From positions 19,637 through 83,636 of the forward strand of contig NCEF01000010.1 in assembly GCA_002280565.1 (NCBI GenBank): a stretch of 64,000 nucleotides of DNA. Reading direction: 5' to 3'. Below the pieces are notes generated by a model that made no database searches, was not told where the DNA came from, and was given only the letters and a program-made list of their open reading frames with translations. The stretch comes from Sphingomonas sp. 32-66-10. Lineage in GTDB: Bacteria; Pseudomonadota; Alphaproteobacteria; Sphingomonadales; Sphingomonadaceae. Position 1 is the stretch's first letter. Each line of letters starts with the position of its first letter. Both the position numbers and the translations under genes were made by a program. Of this stretch, positions 3,720-54,113 are shown in pieces.

Positions 3720-3886
3720 AATTCCTCCCCCAGCTCGCTGGGGAGGTGGCGGCGCGAAGCGCTGACGGAGGGGCCGCCCCGCAGAGGGCGGAATTTTGCC
3801 GAGCTGGTCACGGCCGTCTTCGCGGCCGCCCCTCCAGCACTCGCTACGCGAGCGGTCCCCCTCCCCTGCTGCCTAGGGGAGGAATT
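3720..3886. repeat. MITE-like composite repeat, R1 long form, copy 1
   Basis: About 167 bp bounded by inverted ATTCCTCCCC and GGGGAGGAATT ends, each end itself a palindrome. The interior contains the string GCGCTGACGGAGGGG next to CCGCCCCGCAGAGGGCGGAA. The copy at 53935-54100 shares the ends, length and interior in the same orientation, and the one at 58397-58526 carries the reverse complement of part of it. No ORF with coding character lies inside. It fills most of the 3635-3939 gap. Confidence 0.8.
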
Positions 3887-3939
3887 GAGCCACACCCTTG
3901 CTTGGCGGCGCACCCGCCAGTTGTTAGCCCTACCCGCCG

Positions 3940-11962: not shown

Positions 11963-12086
11963 CGGTTCAGCAGGCTGAACCGGGGGCGGCACCGGCCCGC
12001 TCTCCCAGCCGGCCACCCAACGCCAGTATCCTATGGGTGGCCGGGTGGGGGAGCGGGCCGGTGCCGCGATCCAGCGCAGCTGGATC
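11963..12086. repeat. Three-hairpin element, family R3, copy A
   Basis: Three successive hairpins in the divergent gap between the cinA-like gene and map. First, 11963-11970 with 11975-11982 (CGGTTCAG/CTGAACCG). Second, a long palindrome with 34-bp arms, 11986-12019 with 12034-12067, 32 of 34 positions paired, 14-nt loop. Third, 12068-12075 with 12079-12086 (GATCCAGC/GCTGGATC) around GCA. Copy B at 42.1-42.2 kb has the same three-part plan. Confidence 0.8.
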
Positions 12087-12134
12087 CACCTAGACGAACT
12101 ATCTCACCTCGCAAAGTTACCCTTAAGGCCCTAT

Positions 12135-13153: not shown

Positions 13154-13181
13154 CGCTTCCGCTCTCCCAATCTCCAATCGT

Positions 13182-13282
13182 CACCCCGGCCTTGTGCCGG
13201 GGTCCACTGTGCCGCACATCCGGCGCCTGAGCCTCTCGCTTCGCGCCTGCCGCCCGGTGGACCCCGGCACAGGGCCGGGGTG
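13182..13282. repeat. Inverted pair of GC-rich REP units (family R2)
   Basis: Two 26-bp units, 13182-13207 and 13257-13282, are inverted copies of each other with one mismatch. Each is itself a palindrome (CCCCGGC...GCCGGGG). The 49 bp between shows nothing else. This is the layout of a BIME, two REP sequences back to back, after map and its small partner gene. Confidence 0.8.
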
Positions 13283-13305
13283 AAAAACGTTGGAAAGCGC
13301 CCGCC

Positions 13306-32674: not shown

Positions 32675-32680
32675 CTTAAA

Positions 32681-32710
32681 TTCCTCCCCTGAGCACACTC
32701 AGGGGAGGAA
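32681..32710. repeat. Short R1 palindrome
   Basis: Perfect 13-bp inverted repeat (32681-32693 with 32698-32710) around CACA, between two converging genes, where it could end transcription from both sides. Confidence 0.7.
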
Positions 32711-32716
32711 CTAAGG

Positions 32717-42060: not shown

Positions 42061-42112
42061 CGCATCGCTCTCCAGATTCGCTTCCCGGCGGCGCGACGCT
42101 AGCTTAGCTCGG

Positions 42113-42232
42113 GTTTCAGTTACACTGAAACGTGCGGCACCGGCCCGCTCCCCCACCCGGCCACCCAACGACAGTGTATTCTATGGGTGGCCGGGTGGGG
42201 GAGCGGGCCGGTGCGGCTTCGGCGCAGCCGAA
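42113..42232. repeat. Three-hairpin element, family R3, copy B
   Basis: First hairpin 42113-42120 with 42124-42131 (GTTTCAGT/ACTGAAAC). Long palindrome 42137-42167 with 42184-42214, 31 bp perfect, 16-nt loop. Third hairpin 42218-42223 with 42227-42232 (TTCGGC/GCCGAA) around GCA. It ends two bases before the MBL hydrolase stop. Compared with copy A the centre is nearly identical while the outer hairpins keep pairing with different bases. Confidence 0.8.
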
Positions 42233-42233
42233 C

Positions 42234-43331
42234 TTAAACGGTCCCCCGATACCACCATACGCCGTCGCGCACCTCGCGCAGCGCGCGTCCCTCGACCTCC
42301 AGCCGCCGCAGATGCGCCAGCGTCTCGCCGGTCGCCAGCCCCAGCATGTCGCCGGTAATCGTCCGCCGGAACATCCGTCCGAAACAATCCACCGCACGGC
42401 GCGGCTCGAACAGATGCTCGGCGAGGATATCGAGCCGCTTGCGATGCTCGTCGCGCAGTGCCGCCAGCCGCACATGCAGCCCGGTGAAGGGCGCGCCATG
42501 CGCCGGGAGCACCAGCAGGTCGTCGGGCAGTTGCAGCAGCTTCTCGATCGAGGCCAGCCATTCGCCCAGCGGATCGGCCTCCGGCTCGCTCACGCCCAGC
42601 GAGACGTTGGAGCTGATGCGCGGCAGCACCTGATCCCCCGCGATCAGCACGCCGTCGCGCGCGTTCCACAAACACGCATGTTCCGGGCAATGCCCCGATC
42701 CCACCACCACCCGCCAGATCGCGTCGCCGATCGCGATGTCCTCGCCATCGACGATCCGGCGATAGCCCAGCGGCAGCGGCGCAACCATCCGGCGAAACTG
42801 GCCAAATCCCTTGGCACGCGCTGCCGCAACCTGTTCCTCGTCCCACCCGGCCGCGCGCCAGAAGGCGATTTGCTCGTCGGGCACCGCATCGCGCACATCG
42901 GCGGTCAACAGCCGCCCCATCAGCCACTCGCCGCGCGTCATCCAGATCGCGGCGTCGAACTTGCGCCCCAGCCATCCGGCAAGGCCAATATGGTCGGGAT
43001 GGAAATGCGTGCAGATCACCCGTCCCGGCGGCGCGGACGCCAGCGGCTCTGCACCGAACAGCGCGCGCCACGCCTCGACCGATGGCGGCACGTTTAGCCC
43101 GCTATCGACGATCGTCGTCGCATCGCCATCGGCGACCAGCCAGCAATTGATATGGTCGAGCGGCCCCGCCATCGGGATGCGGACCCAATGCACGCCGGGC
43201 GCGACCGCAATCGCCTCCCCCACCGCCGGGGTGCGCTCGCCCAAAGGATAGGTCAGCCCGCGATGACTGGTCGCGACAAAGCTCTCGTCCTGGGTCAGCG
43301 AGATGTCGGGGGAGATCGCCGGTTCAGCCAT
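42234..43331 (-). CDS. Metallo-beta-lactamase-fold hydrolase
   Basis: A 365-residue hydrolase with the zinc motif THFHPDHIGL (about 110-120), GSGHCPEHACLW and a later Asp/His (GDQVL, LPAHG), the complete MBL-fold ligand set. The C-terminal 90 residues are a helical HTH-like extension (KRLDILAEHLFEPRRAVDCF) as in some glyoxalase-II or beta-lactamase-like proteins (BLACT_WH type). It probably hydrolyses thioesters or similar bonds in the cytoplasm. No signal peptide. Its 3' end abuts the repeat element, whose third hairpin could end its transcript. Confidence 0.87.
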   Translation of the reverse strand: MAEPAISPDISLTQDESFVATSHRGLTYPLGERTPAVGEAIAVAPGVHWVRIPMAGPLDHINCWLVADGDATTIVDSGLNVPPSVEAWRALFGAEPLASAPPGRVICTHFHPDHIGLAGWLGRKFDAAIWMTRGEWLMGRLLTADVRDAVPDEQIAFWRAAGWDEEQVAAARAKGFGQFRRMVAPLPLGYRRIVDGEDIAIGDAIWRVVVGSGHCPEHACLWNARDGVLIAGDQVLPRISSNVSLGVSEPEADPLGEWLASIEKLLQLPDDLLVLPAHGAPFTGLHVRLAALRDEHRKRLDILAEHLFEPRRAVDCFGRMFRRTITGDMLGLATGETLAHLRRLEVEGRALREVRDGVWWYRGTV

Positions 43332-53934: not shown

Positions 53935-54100
53935 ATTCCTCCCCTGCCCCGCAGGGGAGGTGGCAGCGCGCAGCGCTGACGGAGGGGCCGCCCCGCAGAG
54001 GGCGGAATGTTGCCGATCTGCCCACGGCTGTCTGCGCAGCCGCTCCTCCACCACCCGCTGCGCGGGCGGTCCCCCTCCCCTGCTATGCAGGGGAGGAATT
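53935..54100. repeat. MITE-like composite repeat, R1 long form, copy 2
   Basis: About 166 bp with ATTCCTCCCC and GGGGAGGAATT ends and an interior shared with 3720-3886 in the same orientation. It lies between the symporter stop and the first gamma-glutamyltransferase, inside an otherwise tight operon, which suggests a later insertion. Confidence 0.8.
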
Positions 54101-54113
54101 GAGAGAGAGACCC

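Follow-up and report, generated by a model that had tools for sequence, protein, structure and literature searches.

A short three-hairpin repeat in Sphingomonas and other Alphaproteobacteria: inserted copies, two-sided pair changes, and an inverting central loop

The window analyzed here, a stretch of 64,000 nucleotides from a Sphingomonas genome, contains two copies (A and B) of an element in which a long palindrome lies between two short hairpins, and it raises the question of what kind of element lets its hairpin sequences change without loss of pairing. Compensatory base changes normally serve to prove that an RNA or DNA fold is functional, and the earlier note, made from the sequence alone, argued for selection on structure or else for a transposition mechanism that needs structured flanks.

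A direct check of the sequence confirms the three-hairpin plan at both places. Each copy consists of a 34-nt arm pair that encloses a loop of 14 nt (A) or 16 nt (B), with a short hairpin on each side, the second of which has the loop GCA; the central arms are as first described, 94% complementary in copy A and 97% in copy B, where 31 pairs are consecutive. Folding as single-stranded DNA gives z-scores of -10.8 (A) and -11.9 (B), with 0 of 200 shuffles as good, and a covariance model (R1) of 23 copies including A and B scores the two at 127 and 125 bits when run on the window, where no other place exceeds 14.6 bits. The flanking genes bear out the intergenic placing: copy A lies between divergent genes for a molybdopterin-binding domain protein and an M24 metallopeptidase, and copy B between two minus-strand genes, for a metallo-beta-lactamase fold protein and a dienelactone hydrolase. 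The features are:

11963..11982, + strand: copy A outer hairpin 1, CGGTTCAG-CAGG-CTGAACCG (sequence, ssDNA fold, Sphingomonadales alignment A2)
11986..12019, + strand: copy A left arm of the central palindrome (inverted-repeat pair I4)
12020..12033, + strand: copy A central loop ACGCCAGTATCCTA, inverted in other copies (sequence, loop-orientation comparison)
12034..12067, + strand: copy A right arm of the central palindrome, G-rich (sequence, inverted-repeat pair)
12068..12086, + strand: copy A outer hairpin 2, GATCCAGC-GCA-GCTGGATC (sequence, ssDNA fold, A2)
12091..12092, + strand: copy A right-end TA (sequence and empty site of G092, read by eye)
42105..42106, + strand: copy B left-end TA (sequence and empty site in L268, read by eye)
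42113..42131, + strand: copy B outer hairpin 1, GTTTCAGT-TAC-ACTGAAAC (sequence, ssDNA fold, A2)
42134..42167, + strand: copy B left arm of the central palindrome (inverted-repeat pair I2)
42168..42183, + strand: copy B central loop ACGACAGTGTATTCTA (sequence, loop comparison)
42184..42217, + strand: copy B right arm of the central palindrome (inverted-repeat pair)
42218..42232, + strand: copy B outer hairpin 2, TTCGGC-GCA-GCCGAA (sequence, ssDNA fold, A2)
42235..42236, + strand: copy B right-end TA, within the stop codon of the metallo-beta-lactamase-fold gene (sequence, gene annotation)

The window holds other structured sequence as well. Both right arms (12034-12067 and 42184-42217) match a four-tract G-quadruplex pattern (G3N5G3N1G5N3G3 in copy A) and may be candidates for that fold; a second palindromic repeat family, CCTCCCC...GGGGAGG, occurs at 3721-3889, 53935-54103, 2344-2376, and 32679-32711; and a 36-nt inverted repeat, TCACCCCGGCC...GGCCGGGGTGA, 89% complementary, spans 13181-13283.

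The outer hairpins, at first taken to be unrelated in sequence, are in fact variants of one consensus, with one two-sided change per hairpin in each window copy. From A, B, and 21 other copies, the consensus of hairpin 1 is GTTTCAGC/GCTGAAAC, with T-A replaced by G-C in A and C-G by T-A in B, and that of hairpin 2 is TTCAGC/GCTGAA, with T-A replaced by C-G in A and A-T by G-C in B.

The element is also far more numerous than two copies. The MAG from which the window comes (G000; 2.68 Mb, 83% complete) gives 77 core matches with both strands counted, which merge into 38 distinct cores with 70-base flanks, and includes deletion derivatives that retain the outer hairpins (L040, and another site in L006); its copies are short and carry no transposase gene. 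Matches occur in 21 of 61 genomes (the MAG itself, 36 of the genus, and 24 of the order), of which 19 belong to the genus, the MAG included, and two to another family. The spread across the class is wide: 31 of 385 Alphaproteobacteria genomes have core matches, three of them weak, and these three weakest (G272, G387, and G532) are probably due to chance, L458 and L459 being without the core fold; the remaining 28 genomes bear 18 family labels by hand count. Pelagibius alone has 86 element matches, both strands counted. An exact 27-mer of the right arm is found in at least 111 stretches, with carriers, among the matches listed, in Sphingomonas, Hephaestia, Novosphingobium, Sphingobium, an Altererythrobacter MAG, Rhodospira, Roseospira, Pelagibius, and Eilatimonas. 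Three of 72,556 plasmid records match the element, and the phage records searched gave no match. The element appears widespread as an alphaproteobacterial intergenic repeat. Our literature search, which left subscription journals mostly outside its reach, found no paper that describes or names it, and PMC3733652, on GTAG/CGTC repeats, contains no word starting with "sphingo".

For the analysis of structure, 162 retained core matches were reduced to 133 with full, distinct flanks, 38 from the MAG and 95 from loci fetched by the exact right-arm 27-mer (among the matches listed). By approximate gene calls, 54 lie between tandem genes, 48 between convergent and 10 between divergent genes, 12 inside an ORF, and 9 are not called; the scarcity of divergent sites fits promoter avoidance. 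To the left of the core, 33 copies have an outer stem of at least seven perfect pairs, where dinucleotide shuffles give 1.1%; to the right, 42 copies do, where shuffles give 0.9%. Stems of at least six pairs stand beside 50 (left) and 62 (right) of the 133, one or both being missing in many copies. The earlier note's view of the three-hairpin unit as a repeat therefore holds: copies elsewhere are many, and the outer hairpins recur in them.

Close relatives often have an empty orthologous site, which marks the unit as an insertion. Copy A lies in an intergenic space of 154 bp, for which two relatives (G133 and G092), with flanks 93-95% identical, have 26 bp; at the site of copy B, 14 bp lie between the aligned flanks in G092, and the site is filled in G025. 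Of the 38 copies in the MAG, 37 can be compared in at least one of these three relatives, giving 90 site-by-relative pairs: 47 short gaps, 20 flagged as filled (one flag, L018/G025, is false, and the unflagged L029/G025 resembles a diverged element), and 23 with other DNA, often other palindromic repeats. Some short gaps retain a half-arm remnant (L006/G092, L029/G133). Read by eye, the clearest cases of a TA target are the empty sites at L013 (TAGA) and L010 (CTA), L016 and L025 fit a TA duplication if one TA has mutated to CA, and at copy A 14 bases separate the right-end TA from a conserved CCTCGC, the same spacing as in the G092 empty site; a clear TA duplication is absent at L022, L011, L018, and the left end of copy A. 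The mobile origin offered in the earlier note as an alternative is supported by these empty sites, the clearest of which have TA-type duplications. CCTCCCC...GGGGAGG-like sequence is also seen to fill sites in relatives where the MAG has the three-hairpin element (e.g., L216 and L202).

What might have moved the element is suggested by its ends. In Sphingomonas, the terminal inverted repeats are TAGAGTCGTTTTCAG/CTGAAAACGACTCTA, and TAGAGTCGTTTTCAG or a close variant, with its complement, stands at both ends in L313, L314, L324, L325, and L336; the ends of many copies are degraded. The sequence TAGAGTCGTTT, or its variant with C in place of the second G, occurs six times in 1.18 Mb of loci, always within 79 bases of a core, and the terminal-repeat 15-mer, with at most one mismatch, gives 58 matches in 18 of 151 genus genomes, against 10 matches for a reversed control. 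Among 33 terminal-repeat places from the fetched loci, 14 are flagged with a core within 150 bases (L338 falsely) and 19 are not; these 19 include a diverged core (L315) and core-less forms of 54, 43, and 35 bp (L314, L324, L311, and L328) that look like internal deletions. Ends differ by lineage: TAGAG(C/T)GTTTTCG or similar in Pelagibius, and ATACCAACGG...GGTAT, unlike IS630 ends, in Roseospira, where no end pair flanking a long insert, as an autonomous insertion sequence would show, was seen around the half-copies, several of these places being at or near contig ends. Within copies, the termini are no more complementary to each other than between copies, in a blunt test with wide windows.

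An IS630-type insertion sequence in G004 (L305) has the ends TAGAGCATTTTCA and TAGAGCAAATTCA, similar and non-identical to the element end in the same genome (L321), and six of eight plasmid IS630 copies have TAGAGCA at both ends in a scan limited to ends starting with TA. No insertion sequence with ends identical to those of the element was found among those examined. The IS630 domain PF13358 is present in three of eight carriers tested (G004, G029, and G032) and was not found in the other five (G000, G133, G092, G025, and G027), a point against an IS630 mover resident here. A PF13340-type partner, which we take to be of IS5/427 type, is a weak candidate: it is present in four of the eight carriers, and the copy in G025 starts with TAGGGTCG and ends with TAGGGTCGGGAC, its similarity to the element ends being confined to the first bases. 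A RAYT partner (PF01797) is weak as well, being found in a few carriers only. Judged from sequence, the element ends resemble those of IS630 better than those of the PF13340 type, yet this is a likeness.

Paired positions change together well beyond the two window copies. Two alignments were compared with shuffles on a four-helix fold: A1, with 22 Roseospira/Rhodospira copies (from 26 segments, L425, L426, L427, and L130 being dropped), and A2, with 23 Sphingomonadales copies picked from 186 rows for two recognizable outer hairpins, a choice that favors paired copies. In A1, 95.0% of cells are paired, 11 pairs show two-sided changes (4.9 when shuffled), and covariation is 0.093 (0.046 when shuffled); the corresponding values for A2 are 93.8%, 15 (6.0), and 0.110 (0.057). 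No shuffle of 500 was as high in two-sided changes or covariation in either alignment, the number of further pair types was reached by 5 of 500 (A1) and 2 of 500 (A2), and slid controls fall far below both, with the caveat that even unstructured sequences can exceed shuffles if they are related, as the copies here are. The closing stem P1 is weakly paired (68-76%). In the core arms of the 133 copies, there are 86 two-sided Watson-Crick changes, most of them in the arm's outer third. The outer loops, read outward on both sides, have a polarity: GNA outnumbers TNC by 41 to 4 and GNNA outnumbers TNNC by 29 to 0, with 74 others, among 148 hairpins with 3-4 nt loops on 372 flanks, counts that are not independent because copies are related; distinct combinations stand at 24:3 and 20:0.

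Several lineages show variations on the plan. Variant cores in Sphingomonas and Hephaestia (L033, L041, L322, L337, and L119) carry a further hairpin, CCCCGCAAAGTA/TACTTTGCGGGG or a variant of it, within one of the arms, and it falls in the left or the right arm once copies are turned by loop orientation. In Roseospira navarrensis (L383-L402), hairpin 1 of the aligned copies carries a base without a partner, usually A, at one constant position, and the linker AGTCCGTG is largely conserved; in Roseospira L394 and L398, an unrelated hairpin, TGGCACCGC...GCGGTGCCA, replaces hairpin 2.

The central loop is found in both orientations. With loop classes assigned by eye at the filled sites that could be read, it is inverted in three of eight same-class ortholog pairs at syntenic sites and keeps its orientation in five; two of the inverted loops are exact reverse complements (L026/G092 and L029b/G133), and the third (L038/G025) has one difference. 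Three further ortholog pairs have different loop classes. Relative to the outer hairpins, whose orientation is clear in 55 of 186 rows, the loop is forward in 19, reverse in 23, and unread in 13; in A1, its orientations stand at 14:7, with one unread. Template switching between hairpin arms homogenizes the arms and inverts the spacers, according to the accessible part of PMC8604942, and RNA hairpins can be created and maintained in this way, according to that of PMC8794818. Loop inversion at syntenic sites thus points to template switching between the arms, a process that also equalizes them, is likely active in the element, and is able to yield covariation. This suggests that pairing is kept, while letters change, partly by template switching. 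The earlier case for selection on structure consequently stands in part: pairing does persist through sequence change, and in two lineages it exceeds both shuffles and slid controls, but selection is not required to explain it. Template switching alone leaves two features unexplained, the conservation of the inner core across families and the polarity of the outer loops.

Three other accounts of the kept pairs were weighed. A structured RNA, in which the cloverleaf would be transcribed at mRNA 3' ends or as a small RNA and selection on the RNA fold would keep the pairs, would explain the strong covariation in A1 and A2 and the excess of tandem and convergent over divergent sites (54, 48, and 10 of 112, by approximate gene calls), although copy A itself sits between divergent genes and the central loop occurs in both orientations. 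Non-Watson-Crick cells favor G.T over A.C by 18 to 6 in Roseospira/Rhodospira but stand at 17 to 19 in Sphingomonadales, so that there is no consistent RNA strand, and in helix P4 the ratio turns round between the two lineages, 8:0 against 0:8. The G.T excess in the core arms (38:21 in the MAG; 73:30 in named loci, where the right arm is fixed by the fetch) gives no clear RNA signal, the excess in the MAG being near the expectation from a C-rich left arm by hand calculation. Tetraloops are GNRA in 15 cases and GNYA in 14, against the preference of RNA tetraloops, and no Rfam family scores above its gathering threshold in the whole window, the region of copy A having sub-threshold matches only. 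We consider such an RNA unlikely. An intrinsic terminator was rejected, as no T-run directly follows either of the central stems, whichever strand is read by eye.

Folded DNA may instead be the object of selection, with hairpins or a cruciform needed by a host protein or for transposition and template switching having a minor part. C-GNA-G loops are unusually stable in DNA, and the kept polarity of the outer loops agrees with this account, as does the presence of the core in 28 genomes with 18 family labels once the three weakest matches are dropped; against it, loop inversion demonstrates that exchange between the arms does occur, and we know of no protein that binds the folded element. We regard this account as quite unlikely. 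The outward-pointing outer hairpins with G-N-A or G-N-N-A loops also recall a REPIN, a pair of inverted REP-type hairpins that a RAYT/Y1 (HUH) transposase mobilizes via single-stranded DNA, and PF01797 does occur in some carriers, with four matches in G032 and one each, just above the cut-off, in Rhodospira and Roseospira. The domain is, however, absent from G000 and from Pelagibius; 12 of the 121 genus genomes have it, and these overlap with the 19 genus carriers of the element only in G032 (among the matches listed). The element shows terminal inverted repeats and, at its clearest sites, TA-type duplications, which to our knowledge are not REPIN features, and we hold a REPIN-like origin to be very improbable.

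The explanation that we favor, as moderately probable, is a MITE-like element moved in trans by IS630-type machinery, with its pairing kept partly by template switching. The element is a gene-less unit of about 125-150 bp, with three hairpins and middle palindrome arms of about 30-34 bp, that would insert at TA. Its likely mover, judging by the resemblance of the ends, would be an IS630-family (Tc1/mariner-type) transposase acting in trans. During replication, the growing strand would switch template between the arms, such that one arm is copied onto the other and the loop may flip, and this would account for most of the kept pairing; a need for single strands to fold may contribute as well, given that the outer loops keep their polarity, with G-N-A or G-N-N-A read outward. 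A further reading, to which we give a slim chance, much as to the RNA, takes the central palindrome, a G-rich/C-rich hairpin found in many families of the class, as the conserved unit, riding different end modules (TAGAG-type, ATACCAACGG-type, and CCATTTTCGA-type) and equalized and flipped in place by template switching. If true, a DNA hairpin would spread and renew itself via replication, and transposon ends would serve the first landing only. Since it combines compensatory changes with loops that are seen inverted between orthologs, the element is a natural test bed for distinguishing covariation that comes from replication errors from covariation that comes from selection.

Known systems share parts of this plan. 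RUP, a MITE of pneumococcus, is tied to an IS630 element. Our MITE-like element resembles it in being short, non-coding, and intergenic, with terminal inverted repeats, TA ends, and long stem-loops, and differs from RUP-type MITEs, as the accessible part of PMC2229807 describes them, in having three hairpins and a long central palindrome that is conserved while the ends vary by lineage. The Caulobacter CIR, in the same part of that source, are likewise alphaproteobacterial intergenic repeats of about 110 bp with long inverted repeats and TA termini; they have a two-arm fold that includes a linker and shows GANTC in a loop, against three hairpins here, a distinction drawn by description and not by sequence. 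A CcrM/GANTC link is weak for the present element, in which GANTC occurs at 2.8 per kb against 1.9 per kb in the flanks. REP/REPIN with RAYT share the inverted, outward hairpin pair, the many copies, and the intergenic placing, whereas here the Y1 transposase is missing from most carriers tested, the probable target is TA, and there is a central palindrome. Natural template-switch hairpins, in the accessible parts of PMC8604942 and PMC8794818, show the same equalization of arms and inversion of spacers; in contrast to them, the present case is a multicopy bacterial element in which these changes are visible at orthologous sites.
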